The position numbers and the translations under genes are program-made. Source: Lachnospiraceae bacterium (GTDB lineage: Bacteria > Bacillota > Clostridia > Lachnospirales > Lachnospiraceae). Taken from it: DNA of 64,000 nucleotides. Below, piece after piece: positions 15,563 to 23,566 of the stretch (positions are counted from its first letter, which is position 1; every line of letters begins with the position of its first letter). The notes under the pieces are model-generated. The model was not told the DNA's origin and did not search any database. It saw only the letters and a list, made by a program, of their open reading frames with translations. Location: assembly GCA_016286555.1 (NCBI GenBank), contig JAEETA010000003.1:81556-145555 (forward strand). Reading direction: 5' to 3'.

Positions 15563-15589
15563 GTTTTACACAAGGGAATGGAATCAGAC

Positions 15590-18500
15590 ATGAGATATAA
15601 TGCGTTTATCAGTTACAGACATTCGGAACTGGATATGTTCGTGGCAAAGCAGGTGCACCGGAGACTGGAGACCTTCCGTGTCCCCCGCAAGGTGCAGAAG
15701 GCCACGGGCGTCAAGAATATCAAGAGGGTGTTCCGCGACCAGGAGGAGCTTCCCATCGGAAGTGACCTGGGGGATAACATCAGCACCGCTTTGCAGGAAT
15801 CGGAATTCCTGCTGGTGATCTGCTCTCCCAGAACCCCTCAGTCCTACTGGGTTCAGACGGAGATCAAGACCTTCATCTCCATGCACGGCAGGGAGAATGT
15901 GCTGGCTATTCTCATTGAGGGCGAGCCCAACGAGTCCTTCCCGCCGGAGCTGCTGACGGATGAAAAAGGAAATCCCGTGGAGCCTCTGGCAGCGGATGTC
16001 CGCGGCAAGGATATGCGGGAGGTGAAAAAGAAGCTCCGGACGGAGATCATGCGTCTGGCAGCACCTCTGCTTCACTGCAGTTATGACGATCTGCGGCAGC
16101 GCCACAAAGAGCGTCAGATGCGGAGAGCCTTTGCTTTTATGACTGCGGGCCTGGTGCTGGCATCCGGCATTGCGGCAGCAGCTATCTACACTGCGAAGAC
16201 GGTGCATGATGCGGCCGTAAAGGTGGAAGCGGCTTACGAAGAGACCCAACGTGCGTACGAGGCGGAGCAGGAAAGTCTTCGTCTGCAGAAGATCGCTTAT
16301 CGCGAACAGCTCATCAGCCAGTCCAAGGTCCTGGCGGAGACCGCAGAGGACCTGCTGAAGGAAGGCGACCGTATGCGGGGTATCGCCGTAGCATTGGCAG
16401 CCCTTCCCTCCGAGGAGAATGACAGACCCTATGAGCCCAGGGCAGAGATGGCCCTGAATGAAATGCTCTATGCATACAATTCCGGCGCAGAGCTGGAGCC
16501 GGACCGGATCGTATCCATGCCTCTTCCGGTGAGTGATTTCAAGCATAACCCGAACGGGGATAAGATCGTAGTCAGCGATAATTCCGATGAGGTGGCTGTT
16601 TTTACCACCGTTGACGGAAAGAAGCTCTTTAGCGTACCTGCTCCTCTGGATGACAGAAATGACACCTATGATCTGCGGGATATGCTCATGACGGGAGATG
16701 ACACCACTGTCATTGCGTATGAGAACAGTGTTTCCGCTTATGATTTGGAAGGAGAGCTTCTCTGGACCTTCTCCTATTCGGAATTGGTCGAGGGTCTGCG
16801 CTATTCTTCCGAGCAGGATCTCATTGCCATTGTGTCCCAGCGCACCATCGATTTTGTCAGACCCGGTGGCAGGATTGCCTGCACTTATAACGTGCCGGAG
16901 GAGGAGCCCAGAACCTTTATCGATGCCTGCGGTTTTTCCCCGGATGGAAAGACCTTTGCCTGCACCTTTTATAAGACTTCCTTCTCTCTGTACTCCGATG
17001 CGGAGGATACGGATGAGCGGGGGCATGTAGCCATAGTGGATACCGCAAGCGGTGAGGGCAGGATCGTCCGTGTATCCGCGGGGTATCTTGCTGAGTTATC
17101 CTTTGTGGATAACGAGAGATTTGCCGTGGCTGTGGCTGAGGAAGGAGAGCGGTTGCTCCTGACCGGAAACGGCAGCATCGATTGTGTGAATACGGTCTCC
17201 GGGGCCACGCTCTGGAGTTCCCCTTACCAGTTCAATGCCAATGTGCTGCAGAGCAGCAGTCTGGAGATGTTCTGCAGAGAGATCGAGGATGAAAACGGCA
17301 ACAAGGGAAATAAAGTCGACATCACGGTTGACAGGAATTTCTATGATTACGATGCCGCTGACGGAAAGCTCTGCTTTACCTTTGAGTGCAGTTCTCCCAT
17401 CACCGGACACAATGCGGCACCGGGAAACAGCATCCTGGCCATGTTTGAGCGGGACGGCACCATCGATTATCTGGATGCGGAAGCCGGAAGCGTTTATTCG
17501 GACAACAGAGACAATACGGATCTGACCACCCTGAAGGGCGCTGCCCGGAAGGGATGCCTCGTGATCATGGGGTACAAGTCCCCCGATATCGTCCTCCTTC
17601 GTTACATGGAGGGAGAGGGTAAGACCGAGATCGGATATTACGAGGATTACCTGTCCAATGTGGAATTCAGCGAGGACGGCACTCTGATCCTTCTGGATTA
17701 CGGTCGGAAATACGAAGTCCTGGATGCGCAGACCTACGAGACGGTCTGCAGCGGCGGTGACGGCGAGGAACATGTGAACTTTGTCAGTCTGACGCCTGAT
17801 GATCAGATCCTTCTGTTCCGGGGAAGCTTCCTGGAGCGGATCGATCCCGTCACCGGAGAAAGCGTGAAGCTGGATGCGGATGACTATGAGTTTGCAGAGA
17901 CCATCTATTATCCCGAAGTGGAGCGTCTGGTGTGCTTCGGCAGAGAGTCGGCTGTCATCGACACGAAGGAGATGCAGTACGTCTACACCGATATCCCGGA
18001 TCTGTATGCGGAGTACTACACCCATACCATGGCGGGACTGGGCGGTAAGGACAGTGAGATCCTCTGCATGATGCGCAGCGACAATACGCTCCACATCGTA
18101 AATCTGAAGGATGGGTCCGAACTGGTGGTGGACCGGGAGGAGTTAAAGACTCTGTCAGGCTATGACCACAAGGAGGGCATGACCGTGAGCCGTGACGGAA
18201 GCAAGGTGGCTTTCTTCTGTCTGGACGGCTACGCAAGAGTGCTGGATACTTCCGACGGACACGAGGTGGCAGCCATTCCTTTCACTGCCAGAAGAGAGAT
18301 GTTCCTGGGATTCTCCCCCGACGGAAGCAAACTGATGCTGCAGGGAGATGACTACTATTTCCGCGTCTTCGATCTGGAGACCGGAAAGCTGGTCTACCTG
18401 TCGGATACCCAGTTCTATACCGTTGCTCAGGCAAAATATGAAGAGGAGTCCGGGATTATCATTCTCCGCGCAGGCGTGTATCTGTATGTGTTTGACGCGG

Positions 18501-18697
18501 ATTCCTACGGATGTATTCTGGCGGTTCCTTATGGCAAGGACATGAATCTGAAGGCAAAGCAGGTACTCACGGTGTCCAGGCACACGCTCTACTCCTTCCC
18601 GTATCGTACGCTGGAGGAGCAGATCGAGCTGGCTCATGAGACACTGGGAGACTACGTGCTTTCGGAGGAGAGCAGGATACAGTTAAACGTGGATTAA
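15590..18697 (+). CDS. TIR domain - TM - beta-propeller (WD40/PQQ-like) protein
   Basis: N-terminal TIR-like YNAFISYRHSELD...FRDQEELPIGSDLGDNISTALQESEFLLVICSPRTPQSYWVQTEIKTF; single TM (AFMTAGLVLASGIAAAAIY); STAND-like connector helix LISQSKVLAETAEDLLKEGDRMRGIAVALAALP; repeated beta-propeller segments (FSPDGKTFACTF, FSPDGSKLML); alternative start ATG 15578. Confidence 0.88.
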   Translation: MRYNAFISYRHSELDMFVAKQVHRRLETFRVPRKVQKATGVKNIKRVFRDQEELPIGSDLGDNISTALQESEFLLVICSPRTPQSYWVQTEIKTFISMHGRENVLAILIEGEPNESFPPELLTDEKGNPVEPLAADVRGKDMREVKKKLRTEIMRLAAPLLHCSYDDLRQRHKERQMRRAFAFMTAGLVLASGIAAAAIYTAKTVHDAAVKVEAAYEETQRAYEAEQESLRLQKIAYREQLISQSKVLAETAEDLLKEGDRMRGIAVALAALPSEENDRPYEPRAEMALNEMLYAYNSGAELEPDRIVSMPLPVSDFKHNPNGDKIVVSDNSDEVAVFTTVDGKKLFSVPAPLDDRNDTYDLRDMLMTGDDTTVIAYENSVSAYDLEGELLWTFSYSELVEGLRYSSEQDLIAIVSQRTIDFVRPGGRIACTYNVPEEEPRTFIDACGFSPDGKTFACTFYKTSFSLYSDAEDTDERGHVAIVDTASGEGRIVRVSAGYLAELSFVDNERFAVAVAEEGERLLLTGNGSIDCVNTVSGATLWSSPYQFNANVLQSSSLEMFCREIEDENGNKGNKVDITVDRNFYDYDAADGKLCFTFECSSPITGHNAAPGNSILAMFERDGTIDYLDAEAGSVYSDNRDNTDLTTLKGAARKGCLVIMGYKSPDIVLLRYMEGEGKTEIGYYEDYLSNVEFSEDGTLILLDYGRKYEVLDAQTYETVCSGGDGEEHVNFVSLTPDDQILLFRGSFLERIDPVTGESVKLDADDYEFAETIYYPEVERLVCFGRESAVIDTKEMQYVYTDIPDLYAEYYTHTMAGLGGKDSEILCMMRSDNTLHIVNLKDGSELVVDREELKTLSGYDHKEGMTVSRDGSKVAFFCLDGYARVLDTSDGHEVAAIPFTARREMFLGFSPDGSKLMLQGDDYYFRVFDLETGKLVYLSDTQFYTVAQAKYEEESGIIILRAGVYLYVFDADSYGCILAVPYGKDMNLKAKQVLTVSRHTLYSFPYRTLEEQIELAHETLGDYVLSEESRIQLNVD

Positions 18698-18700
18698 ACA

Positions 18701-18857
18701 GGGGCGAAAAATCATTGTGCGATCATGCTTGCATGAATCGCGCGGTGAATTTGAGCCCCGTCGACCATGAGGAAGAAGTCATATCCTGCATTGCGGGATA
18801 TGACGGGATTCCGAATGGGCGTAGGATGGCGGGAGTTCCGCAGGAACGAAGCCATCC
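18701..18857 (+). repeat. Structured intergenic element, copy 1 (multi-hairpin)
   Basis: H1 GGGGC..ATGC-tt-GCAT..GCCCC (18701-18759), ATGAGgAAGaAG linker, H2 TCATATCCTGC/GCGGGATATGA, terminal H GATGGC-ggga-GTTCC-GCA-GGAAC-gaa-GCCATC; same architecture as 23140-23330. Confidence 0.75.
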
Positions 18858-18899
18858 GTGTTAAGATTAAGACGAGACATACATCAGGGAGGAAAACAG

Positions 18900-20471
18900 A
18901 TGAAGCTGACAGATCTTTCACCTTTTAATGAGATCGTGATCCAATGTCATGACAATCCGGATGCGGATGCACTGGGCTCCGGCTTTGCGCTTTTGCATTA
19001 TTTTTCCTCTCTGGGGAAAAATGTGCATTTCATCTACAGCGGCAGAGCGAAGGTGACCAAGAGCAACTTAAAACTCATGATCCAGGAACTGGAGATCGCG
19101 GTCACCTATGTGAAGGATGAGGTTGCCTTTGCCAAGGCCGTGGCTGCGTGGCGCGGCATGGAAGGCACCGTAACCGACGGGCCCGAACTGCTGTTGATGA
19201 CAGATTGTCAATACGGTGAAGGTAATGTGACGAAGTTCCCGGCGCAGACCGTTGCGGTGATCGATCACCATCAGGTGACGGGCTCCCTGCCGGAGCTGCA
19301 CGAAGTGCGCAGCAAGAACGGCAGCGCCTGCACCATCGTCTGGGATATGATGAAGCAGGCAGGTTACGATTTTGGTCGTGACTGGAGAGTGTCCACTGCG
19401 CTGTACTACGGACTTTTGACGGATACCGGGAACTTTGCGGATCTGCGGCATCCGCTGGACAGAGATATGCGGGAAGCGCTGGACATTGATGCTACCCTGA
19501 TCCGTCGCCTCTGCAATTCCAACCTGTCTCTGGAGGAGATGAAGGTGGCAGGTGTGGCCCTCATCAGTAATGAGTACCACGAGGATCACCGCTATGCCAT
19601 CATTCAGTCCGAGCCCTGTGATCCCAACATTCTGGGACTCATCAGCGATTTTGCCCTTTCCGTGGACACGGTGGATATGTGTCTGGTGTACACCGTGCTT
19701 TCCGACGGTATTAAATTCTCCGTCAGAAGCTGCATCCGGGAGGCGAAGGCAAGCGAGCTGGCAGCTTACCTTTCTGCGGACATCGGTTCCGGCGGCGGCC
19801 ATCTGGACAAGGCAGGCGGATTTTTGCAGACAGCCCTGATCATCGAGAAATACCCGGAGTATGATTTTTCCCAGAGCAACCGCTTCCTGCAGATCATCCG
19901 CGAGGTGCTGCGGCAGCGCATGAGCGAGTACTTCGACAGCTTCGATGTCATCGACGTGAAGAAGGATAAGCTGAATGAGGATGAGGTGGAGCTCTATCAC
20001 AAGGTGCCCATGACGGTTGGCTACGTGAAGGCTTCCGATGTGGCTCAGGTGGGCTCCGATATCGTGATCCGTACCCTGGAGGGGGACATCCATCTGACGG
20101 TGGAGCCGGATCATTACATCATGATCGGCATCAAGGGAGAGGTGTATCCCATCCACGAGAAGAAATTCCTGGCAGGGTATGAAAAGCTGGACGAGGTCTA
20201 CAACCTGCAGCTGGAGTATGAGCCCAGGATCACCAAGGGCAAGGAGAGCATCCTGCTGCTTCCCTACGCAAAGCAGTGCCGCACCACGGGCAAATCCCAG
20301 ATCCTGGCCCGGAAGCTGACAAAGCCCATGAAGGTCTTTACCGAGTGGGACAGAGAAGGCTATATGTATGGCAAGGTGGGCGATTACGTGGCCTGCCGCA
20401 TGGACGACCACAGCGATATCTATATCGTTGACGGCGATATTTTTGCAAACAGTTACGCCCCCGGTGAATAA
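18900..20471 (+). CDS. DHH-family phosphoesterase with ~170-aa C-terminal extension
   Basis: HDNPDADALGSG, MTDCQYGEG, IDHHQVTG, GSGGGHLDKAGG; extra C-terminal segment beyond DHHA1. Confidence 0.88.
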   Translation: MKLTDLSPFNEIVIQCHDNPDADALGSGFALLHYFSSLGKNVHFIYSGRAKVTKSNLKLMIQELEIAVTYVKDEVAFAKAVAAWRGMEGTVTDGPELLLMTDCQYGEGNVTKFPAQTVAVIDHHQVTGSLPELHEVRSKNGSACTIVWDMMKQAGYDFGRDWRVSTALYYGLLTDTGNFADLRHPLDRDMREALDIDATLIRRLCNSNLSLEEMKVAGVALISNEYHEDHRYAIIQSEPCDPNILGLISDFALSVDTVDMCLVYTVLSDGIKFSVRSCIREAKASELAAYLSADIGSGGGHLDKAGGFLQTALIIEKYPEYDFSQSNRFLQIIREVLRQRMSEYFDSFDVIDVKKDKLNEDEVELYHKVPMTVGYVKASDVAQVGSDIVIRTLEGDIHLTVEPDHYIMIGIKGEVYPIHEKKFLAGYEKLDEVYNLQLEYEPRITKGKESILLLPYAKQCRTTGKSQILARKLTKPMKVFTEWDREGYMYGKVGDYVACRMDDHSDIYIVDGDIFANSYAPGE

Positions 20472-20489
20472 GGGGTTACGAGGTTCAGC

Positions 20490-21410
20490 TTGGAGATCAT
20501 TACCGGAACGGAAGAATTTCATATTGAAGCGGACACGGCGGTGGCCATCGGAAAATTCGACGGCGTGCACCTGGGACACAGGCGCATTCTGGAGGAGATC
20601 CTGAAAAAACAGAGCGAAGGCCTCCGATCCTGTGTGTTTACCTTTGATCCGTCCCCGGCGGTGCTCTTTGGCGGTGGTGATGTCCGGGAACTCACCACCC
20701 GGGAGGAAAAGCGGCTCCTGCTGCAGCGAATGGGTGTGGAGATCCTGATCGAGTATCCCCTGAGCTTTGAAAATGCGGCGACGCCCCCGGAGATCTTTGT
20801 CCGGGAGATCCTGATCGAGCGCATGGGTGCAGGCTTCCTGGCTGCGGGCCCGGACCTGTCCTTCGGCGCAGGCGGCAGAGGAAATCTGGAGCTCCTGCGG
20901 AAAATGGCACCGGAAAGCGGTCTGGAGATCAGCGAGATCCCCAAACTTCTCTTTGAGGACGGGGGAGAGACGAAGGAGATCAGTTCTTCCCTGATCCGTT
21001 CCTTTGTGGAAGCGGGCCGGATGGAAGAAGCGGGAGAGTGCCTGGGCACGCCCTATCCCATTCTTGGAAAGGTGGTGCAGGGTGCGCATCTGGGACATAC
21101 CCTTGGTTTCCCCACAGTGAATGTGGAGATTCCGGAAGAAAAACTCCTGCCGCCCTACGGCGTGTACACTTCCGTGATGACGGTGGACGGACGTGAGTAT
21201 CAGGGTATTACCAACATTGGCTGCAAGCCTACGGTGGCTTCCGGCATACGCCCTCTCGCGGAAACCTACCTCTATGATTTTGACGAGGAGATCTACGGGA
21301 AGGAAGTGCTGATCGGCCTGAAGGCTTTCAAGCGTCCGGAGCGGAAGTTCCCCGATGTGGAAGCCTTAAAGGAGCAGCTGCGGCAGGATATTGAAAACTG
21401 CAGGCCCTGA
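20490..21410 (+). CDS. ribF: Bifunctional riboflavin kinase/FAD synthetase
   Basis: AIGKFDGVHLGHRRILEEI; SSLIRSFVEAGRMEEAGECLGTPYPILGKVVQGAHLGHTLGFPTVNVE; TTG start. Confidence 0.95.
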   Translation: MEIITGTEEFHIEADTAVAIGKFDGVHLGHRRILEEILKKQSEGLRSCVFTFDPSPAVLFGGGDVRELTTREEKRLLLQRMGVEILIEYPLSFENAATPPEIFVREILIERMGAGFLAAGPDLSFGAGGRGNLELLRKMAPESGLEISEIPKLLFEDGGETKEISSSLIRSFVEAGRMEEAGECLGTPYPILGKVVQGAHLGHTLGFPTVNVEIPEEKLLPPYGVYTSVMTVDGREYQGITNIGCKPTVASGIRPLAETYLYDFDEEIYGKEVLIGLKAFKRPERKFPDVEALKEQLRQDIENCRP

Positions 21411-21469
21411 GGATGGCGGATTTTGATCAGGAGATTTTGATATATTAGCCAGGCGAGGAGAATTGGATT

Positions 21470-23131
21470 TTGCGAAAGAAAGCGTACGGAAAAGCGGTGG
21501 TCCGGGGCGTGCTGCTGGCAGCGGCGATGATGCTGTCAGGGTGCGGAGCGGGCGGATCTGCAGGATCGGATGAAGGCGCCGTGAGCACGGAAACGGCGCA
21601 GACAGAGAGCGAATCGGAAAATACGGCCTCGGGGGAAGCCTCGCAGCCGGCAGAAGGAACAAAAGAGCAGGAGGATGTTTCAATGGACTATGCAGAGCTT
21701 TTCAAGGATGTGAAGGTGGCACAGAGCTTCAAGGGAGCGACAAACTGCAACCCCATCATCGAGCAGCACTACGGCGCAGACCCTTATGCGCTGGTGTACG
21801 GCGACGAGGTGTATTTTTACATGACTGCCGATGCCTATGAGTACGATGCCAAGGGAGAGATCTCGGAGAATACCTACGGCAAGATCCGCAGTCTCTATGT
21901 GGTTTCTACGAAGGATATGATCAATTTCACCGACCACGGCGAGATCACCATTGCGGGCGAAGGGGGAGCAACTACCTGGGCACACAATTCCTGGGCCCCT
22001 GCGGCAGCGTGGAAGGAGATCGACGGTAAGCCCAAGTTCTTCCTGTATTTTGCGGACAACGGCGGCGGCATCGGCGTGGTTACCGCTGACAGCCCCGTGG
22101 GACCTTTCCGGGACGAGCTGGGTCACGGCCTGATCCGCAGAGATATGGAAAATTGCGGTAATGTGGAGTGGCTCTTTGATCCCGCAGTGCTGGTGGATGA
22201 TGACGGCAGAGCTTACATCTACTTTGGCGGCGGCGTGCCGAAAGGAAAGGCCTCCCATCCCATGACCGCAAGATGCGCGGAGCTGGGGGAGGACATGATG
22301 AGCCTGAAGGGGGTACCCGAGGTCATCGATGCGCCTTACCTCTTTGAGGATTCCGGCATCCACAAGTTCGGTGATACCTATTATTACACCTACTGCAGCA
22401 ATTTCAGCGTGGACGCGGAAGGCACCGCGGAGTACGGTTTTGAGAACGGCGAGATCTGCGTCATGGAGAGCAAGAGTCCCCTGGGACCCTTCACCTTTAA
22501 GGAGCGGATCCTGAAAAATCCCGGCGCATACTTCGGCGTGGGCGGCAACAATCACCATGCAGTGTTTGAATTCAAGGATCAGTGGTATATCACCTACCAC
22601 ACCCGTATCCTGGAGACCGCGCAGGGCATTCAGAAGGGCTATCGCAGCACCAGCGTCGAGCCCATCAGCATCGCTGAGGACGGCACCATCGGCAACATCG
22701 TCATGACAAAGAACGGCCGCAAGCAGGTGGGTGCGCTGAATCCCTATGAGACCATTAACGGTGCCACCTTCGCAGTGATGGGCGGTGTGGATACCGCTCC
22801 TGCGGATGAAGTGAGCAAGGAGTACGGTTGCGGCAATCTGCTGCTGACCGCCATCGATACCGGAGATTTCGTAATGCTCCGGGGCGTGGACTTCGGCGAT
22901 AAAGGTGCTACGAAGATCAAAGCTACCGTCCGCACGAATGGCCAGACTGGCGCGGTCCGCATCACCACCCGTTTTGCCACCGGCGATGTGGCAGGATACC
23001 TTCCCATCAGCGGAGAGGGAGATACGGTGGTCTGCGAGGCGGAGCTGGATGCACCTCTGACGGGGATCCAGGATGTGTACTTCACCTTCAGCGGAGAAGG
23101 ATACGAGATTTTGGACTGGGTCTTTGAATGA
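21470..23131 (+). CDS. GH43-like glycosidase lipoprotein (arabinosidase/xylosidase type)
   Basis: Lipobox-like AAAMMLSGCGAGG; GH43-type DPYALVYGDEVYFY, WAPAAAWKEIDGKPKFFLYFAD, FDPAVLVDDDGRAYIYFGGG; TTG start with upstream GAGGAG. Confidence 0.88.
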   Translation: MRKKAYGKAVVRGVLLAAAMMLSGCGAGGSAGSDEGAVSTETAQTESESENTASGEASQPAEGTKEQEDVSMDYAELFKDVKVAQSFKGATNCNPIIEQHYGADPYALVYGDEVYFYMTADAYEYDAKGEISENTYGKIRSLYVVSTKDMINFTDHGEITIAGEGGATTWAHNSWAPAAAWKEIDGKPKFFLYFADNGGGIGVVTADSPVGPFRDELGHGLIRRDMENCGNVEWLFDPAVLVDDDGRAYIYFGGGVPKGKASHPMTARCAELGEDMMSLKGVPEVIDAPYLFEDSGIHKFGDTYYYTYCSNFSVDAEGTAEYGFENGEICVMESKSPLGPFTFKERILKNPGAYFGVGGNNHHAVFEFKDQWYITYHTRILETAQGIQKGYRSTSVEPISIAEDGTIGNIVMTKNGRKQVGALNPYETINGATFAVMGGVDTAPADEVSKEYGCGNLLLTAIDTGDFVMLRGVDFGDKGATKIKATVRTNGQTGAVRITTRFATGDVAGYLPISGEGDTVVCEAELDAPLTGIQDVYFTFSGEGYEILDWVFE

Positions 23132-23139
23132 TGATACAA

Positions 23140-23330
23140 GGGTCATAAGTCAAAACTGCGAGTTATGCTTGCATAAACGAGCATTTTGACTTAAGGACCC
23201 GAACAAACATGAGCAAGTAGCAATTTCCTGCGAAGGCAGGAAATTAGCGGATTGCGAATGCATGACAACAGAGCGCAAAGCGGTCTGTTGTAGTGTAGAA
23301 TTGCGAGAGTTGCGCAGCAACGGAGCAATT
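23140..23330 (+). repeat. Structured intergenic element, copy 2 (multi-hairpin)
   Basis: H1 GGGTC..TAAGTCAAAA..ATGC-tt-GCAT..TTTTGACTTA..GACCC, ATGAGcAAGtAG linker, H2 AATTTCCTGC/GCAGGAAATT, extra ACAACAGA/TCTGTTGT hairpin, terminal H AATTGC-gaga-GTTGC-GCA-GCAAC-gga-GCAATT. Confidence 0.75.
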
Positions 23331-23454
23331 TGTTGTATCAGATAAAACAGAAACTGCACCGCTCGTACCGTTTCCGCAATGCCCTTATTATAGTGAAGAA
23401 ACGGAAACGGAACGGAAACGATTAAGTGACCGTAAAATGTGGATTTTACAGGGG

Positions 23455-23483
23455 TTGACAATAATTTTGTCAGCCCCTATAAT
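23455..23483 (+). promoter_or_regulatory. Perfect consensus sigma-70 promoter
   Basis: TTGACA - 17 nt - TATAAT; overlapped by inverted repeat AGGGGtTGACAA-taatt-TTGTCAgCCCCT (23450-23478). Confidence 0.85.
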
Positions 23484-23566
23484 TTATTTGTAATATTTTT
23501 GTAACATTCGATTTGCACAGAGGCGAAATCAGGGGATTGCGCCTCGATTTTATGGGGATACGATTC

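Follow-up and report, generated by a model that had tools for sequence, protein, structure and literature searches.

Two intergenic multi-hairpin elements with a common architecture lie some 4 kb apart in the 64,000-nucleotide stretch of Lachnospiraceae DNA analysed here (the window), and they raise a simple question: what are they, and why does each of them begin where a gene ends? The sequence-only reading had taken them for a candidate undescribed structured RNA or repeat family, with no named Rfam family recognised. Comparing the entire window with Rfam 15 leads to a different answer, since both elements match Clostridiales-1 RNA (RF01699) over the full model (positions 1-166), with 109.1 bits for copy 1 and 83.3 bits for copy 2 against a gathering cut-off (GA) of 48 bits, and this identification is near certain. 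A survey of structured RNA candidates (Weinberg et al. 2010, PMC2864571) lists the family, without a function, as "RNA likely, not cis-regulatory, Clostridiales and human gut", and Rfam gives its type as "Gene; sRNA"; beyond that survey, a literature search by the accession RF01699 returned, judging by titles and abstracts in the library covered, no study of the family's function. The claim of novelty thus falls for the family, and what is new here is its transposon origin. Both halves of the original alternative turn out to hold, in that a structured core sits inside a mobile miniature element.

The architecture itself was accurately described. Both copies lie on the forward strand, and their limits (18693..18866 and 23132..23340) are slightly larger than those first noted (18701-18857 and 23140-23330). 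Read directly, copy 1 consists of a GGGGC/GCCCC hairpin with apex ATGCTTGCAT, then ATGAGGAAGAAG, a TCCTGC hairpin, GGATTCCGAATG and a GTAG-led hairpin GGATGGC..GCCATCC, whereas copy 2 has a GGGTC/GACCC hairpin with the same apex, then ATGAGCAAGTAG, a TCCTGC hairpin, GGATTGCGAATG, an extra hairpin and the GTAG-led hairpin. In the predicted fold of copy 1 a short closing helix P1 (18697-18700 with 18859-18862) encloses the long hairpin P2 (18701..18759, apical loop G(CUUG)C), P3 (18762..18821, ATGAG... / GGATTCCGAATG) with its inner hairpin P3b (18778-18804), both of these also seen by covariation, and the GTAG-led terminal hairpin P4 (18824..18857). Copy 2 folds into P2 (23140..23200), P3 (23208..23260) with P3b (23220-23248), and P4 (23298..23331), and its P1, in which TGATACAA (23132..23139) pairs with TTGTATCA (23333-23340), is strong (8 bp) where that of copy 1 is weak (4 bp). 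Copy 2 does contain the extra hairpin, as an inserted mini-hairpin ACAACAGA..TCTGTTGT at 23265..23291 that stands out when orthologous copies are compared. Folding of the two elements gave z-scores of -8.4 and -9.8 against shuffled sequences, with 0 of 200 shuffles as good. Finally, both do start at stop codons: the first positions of the model in copy 1 include the TAA (18695..18697) of the upstream reading frame (15578-18697), and copy 2 directly follows a gene ending at 23131.

Some neighbouring features deserve mention in their own right. The frame directly upstream of copy 1 encodes a protein of 1039 aa whose N-terminal domain is TIR / ThsB-like and whose C-terminal part holds beta-propeller repeats; it may act in defence or signalling. 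Just 3' of copy 2 there are short direct repeats of CGGAAACGGAA (23360-23420), followed, upstream of an SH3/NlpC gene, by a strong promoter-like TTGACA...TATAAT (23440-23490) that overlaps the palindrome GGGGTTGACAATAATTTTGTCAGCCCC, which together look like an operator.

Selection on structure, which had been proposed from compensatory changes between two copies only, is borne out when 30 copies drawn from many species are aligned: 27 of the 30 consensus pairs show two-sided compensatory changes. P1 lies outside this consensus, yet its two arms strongly change together from one insertion site to the next (mean run 6.6, against 3.97 when permuted; 0 of 2000 permutations reach the observed value). 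The 5' arm of P1 is often the end of the upstream coding sequence, stop codon included.

Where, then, does the element come from? In many Lachnospiraceae the RF01699 core lies inside a miniature transposon (MITE) of about 200 nt with imperfect terminal inverted repeats, TGATnCCAGGGTCAAAAG.../...CTTTTGACCCCAACATCA. Near-identical copies in the genome G033 share the ends TGATACCAGGGTCAAAAG / CTTTTGACCCCAACATCA and reach past the Rfam model, which stops at the closing helix and so lacks the right terminal inverted repeat of the full element; their right end GTTGGGGGCAAAATACCTTTTGACCCCAACATCA repeats the left end TGATACCAGGGTCAAAAG imperfectly in inverse orientation, and target-site duplications (TSDs) of 5 bp border the copies. 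The same ends and anatomy recur in G007, G034 and several further genomes. Among 30 copies with this anatomy, whose inverted repeats are TGAT-ended, 14 had an exact 5-bp TSD, where swapped partners give 0.59 by chance, and another 7 had 4 of the 5 positions. Inverted repeats together with 5-bp duplications indicate that the core is carried by a non-autonomous miniature transposon, and we consider this origin of RF01699 well supported and hold it with high confidence. The two window copies are another matter: by inspection of the flanks and motif scan, both lack the right terminal inverted repeat and the TSD, while the left repeat is kept in copy 2 (TGATACAAGGGTCATAAG) and lost in copy 1. We therefore read them as immobile derivatives, not as intact MITEs. 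That repeat-less copies in general descend from the mobile form is something we infer from the gradients described below and from partly decayed right ends rather than from any dated series.

The expectation that such elements would form a dispersed family was correct. The host genome (G000; 2.93 Mb, 89.8% complete) has 22 RF01699 matches, 18 of them above the cut-off, and the number of copies in relatives is patchy, from 0 to 35. Comparison with a sister species (G010, 83-92% identical across this region) indicates turnover: two sites occupied in the host (L003 and L012) are empty in the sister, without remnant, two occupied in the sister (L085 and L093) are likewise empty in the host, and about 11 further sites hold just a truncated or decayed copy in one species or the other, among them that of copy 2, which in the sister has suffered a large internal deletion. 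This one-sided decay implies that many copies are dispensable. The same comparison revealed one tandem duplication, and in the more distant G019 the two genes at the site syntenic with copy 1 are adjacent and the element is absent. Copy 2's extra hairpin is itself polymorphic, being present or absent between orthologous copies of the two sister species, and a hairpin related to it forms part of a second repeat family of about 72 nt. This second dispersed repeat, the two-hairpin GAGCYYGAATAAGCCCAAAGGGCTTATTCCTTTCAAATGCTGACAATAGAGCGCGAAGCGGTCTATTGTAG, has no Rfam match; it occurs in the host at C41:80578-80604, C56:11427-11525, C61:16777, C63:14398 and C73:72954 (loci L157-L171), and in the sister species one copy sits inside the P2 loop of a Clostridiales-1 copy (L144).

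The mobilising transposase was not found in the genomes and loci searched. One obvious candidate was suggested by the terminal hairpin: many copies have GTAG or GGAG 5' of P4, which would fit a REP-like element moved by a RAYT/Y1 transposase. We nevertheless regard this explanation as highly improbable and have rejected it, because Y1_Tnp (PF01797) is absent from the host, G010, G031 and G033, all with 10-30 copies, and present in genomes devoid of RF01699, so that Y1 does not track copy number, and because inverted-repeat ends with 5-bp TSDs do not fit Y1 insertion. A DDE partner (rve, i.e. IS3/IS21-type) fared no better, as the two IS3-/IS21-like proteins of G007 lack matching ends and G033 has no integrase-fold (rve) transposase. 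An autonomous element was also sought by its paired inverted ends: only two pairs lay 0.5-4.5 kb apart, both flanking ordinary host genes, and in 1.7 Mb of loci no paired matching ends enclosed a transposase. Neither the core pattern nor the right end had an exact match in viral contigs, and plasmids gave no match. Twelve unannotated "Bacteriophage sp." records from human feces (MT835871.1 and eleven others) do contain sequences similar to the miniature element; these may be prophages or bacterial contigs.

What happens to copies once they have landed? We graded 168 distinct copies by their remaining terminal repeats (both, left only, neither). The ratio of sense to antisense orientation relative to adjacent genes shifts from 15:8 to 56:15 to 40:4 along this series (trend p 0.010), and ever more copies start at a same-strand stop codon: 6/31 (19%), 33/90 (37%) and 30/47 (64%) (trend p 5e-5). 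These p-values should be taken as indicative only, since the gene calls come from a simple codon-usage caller, the copies, which share ancestry and include orthologues, are not independent, and the wider genome sample taken alone shows but a weak sense bias (29:18). A second indication comes from seven orthologue pairs that are whole in both sister species, in which the element differs at 35 of 1230 positions (2.8%) and the flanks at 343 of 3872 (8.9%); the count covers only sites whole in both species (the pair L015/L097, which seems to be recombined from two neighbouring copies, was set aside), and with decayed copies excluded the constraint speaks for some copies, not all. Taken together, the gradients and the conservation suggest that the element has been retained repeatedly as a structured part of mRNAs.

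The placement of the copies also bears on the type given by Rfam, according to which each copy would be an independent gene for a trans-acting sRNA with its own promoter. This agrees with the 2010 listing (RNA likely, not cis-regulatory; PMC2864571), and a few intergenic copies do lie just behind promoter-like sequences. But 69 of the 168 distinct copies start between -10 and +5 nt from a same-strand stop codon, which leaves no room for a promoter outside the coding sequence, the closing helix draws on coding sequence, and the sequence directly 3' of the two window copies contains no U-run terminator; we think independent sRNA genes quite unlikely. Nor do the copies, judged by their position, look like riboswitches or 5' cis-regulatory leaders, which would lie constantly upstream of related genes; most follow a gene, often at its stop codon, and a minority lie between divergent genes, in a leader.

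A challenge to a role in RNA is raised by the base pairs themselves. In variable stem columns G-T makes up 2% in RF01699, against 19% and 20% in the SAM riboswitches and SRP RNAs of related genomes used as controls, and the ratio of G-T to A-C is 4.6, against 42 or more in these controls. Intact mobile copies have the smallest G-U share (1.4%), and the derivatives have slightly more (2.1% and 2.7%). Most hairpin loops are either C-GNA-G triloops, which are described as unusually stable in DNA, or GCTTGC. Such a near-absence of G-U is unusual for selection at the RNA level and would be compatible with selection on folded DNA. The structure could accordingly serve the DNA element itself, as a hairpin or single-strand form in transposition, replication or protein binding, with transcription incidental; we hold this to be unlikely, as sense bias and stop-codon placement grow with the loss of terminal repeats, which is what would be expected of a transcribed function. 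A variant that we find similarly improbable is that RNA is not the primary form of RF01699: its stems, capped by triloops and built from Watson-Crick pairs only, would have been selected as folded DNA during transposon life, and only some stranded copies would later have been adopted in mRNAs. If this were true, the Rfam family would represent a mobile structure of DNA, domesticated time and again at stop codons. Selection on RNA and on DNA may also both be true, at different stages.

Our preferred reading, to which we give a probability of roughly 0.6, is that Clostridiales-1 is transposon-derived and that sense copies near gene ends have been retained as an element embedded in mRNA. The transposon would insert near gene ends, and sense-oriented copies would then be kept as structured elements in the spacers of operons, in 3' UTRs or in 5' leaders. 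As the closing helix can include or adjoin the stop codon, we propose that folding takes place immediately behind the terminating ribosome. It would most likely act in cis, on the processing or stability of the upstream message, by analogy with Correia/NEMIS or REP elements; for this part we consider the odds about even. For a family that has been an orphan since 2010, a place at the core of a miniature transposon provides an origin and also a role that can be tested, that of mobile hairpins kept when they land in sense orientation at gene ends. This bears on the annotation of repeat-derived families in RNA databases (RF01699 is typed as an sRNA gene, while the copies here mostly look embedded in mRNA and derived from a transposon), and on how gut Lachnospiraceae acquire elements of mRNA processing or stability.

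How does the element compare with known systems? With Rfam's own RF01699 the window copies share hairpins and conserved loops, from end to end. REP elements with RAYT (Y1) resemble it in being intergenic, multi-copy and built on a GTAG-led palindrome, and differ in that the RF01699 element has terminal inverted repeats with a 5-bp TSD and thrives in several high-copy genomes without Y1. The Correia repeat enclosed elements, or NEMIS, of Neisseria are likewise short non-autonomous mobile elements, dispersed between genes, with inverted repeats around a conserved core, and an ability to bind RNase III and to affect adjacent genes has been described for them (PMC2649163). Their sequence and host are different. 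The BOX elements of Streptococcus pneumoniae are modular MITE-like stem-loop repeats. They are mentioned in PMC10969869, and we liken them to RF01699 by architecture: both are modular stem-loops with a variably present hairpin module (here the inserted mini-hairpin), the difference being that RF01699 copies keep to a fixed plan of four helices.
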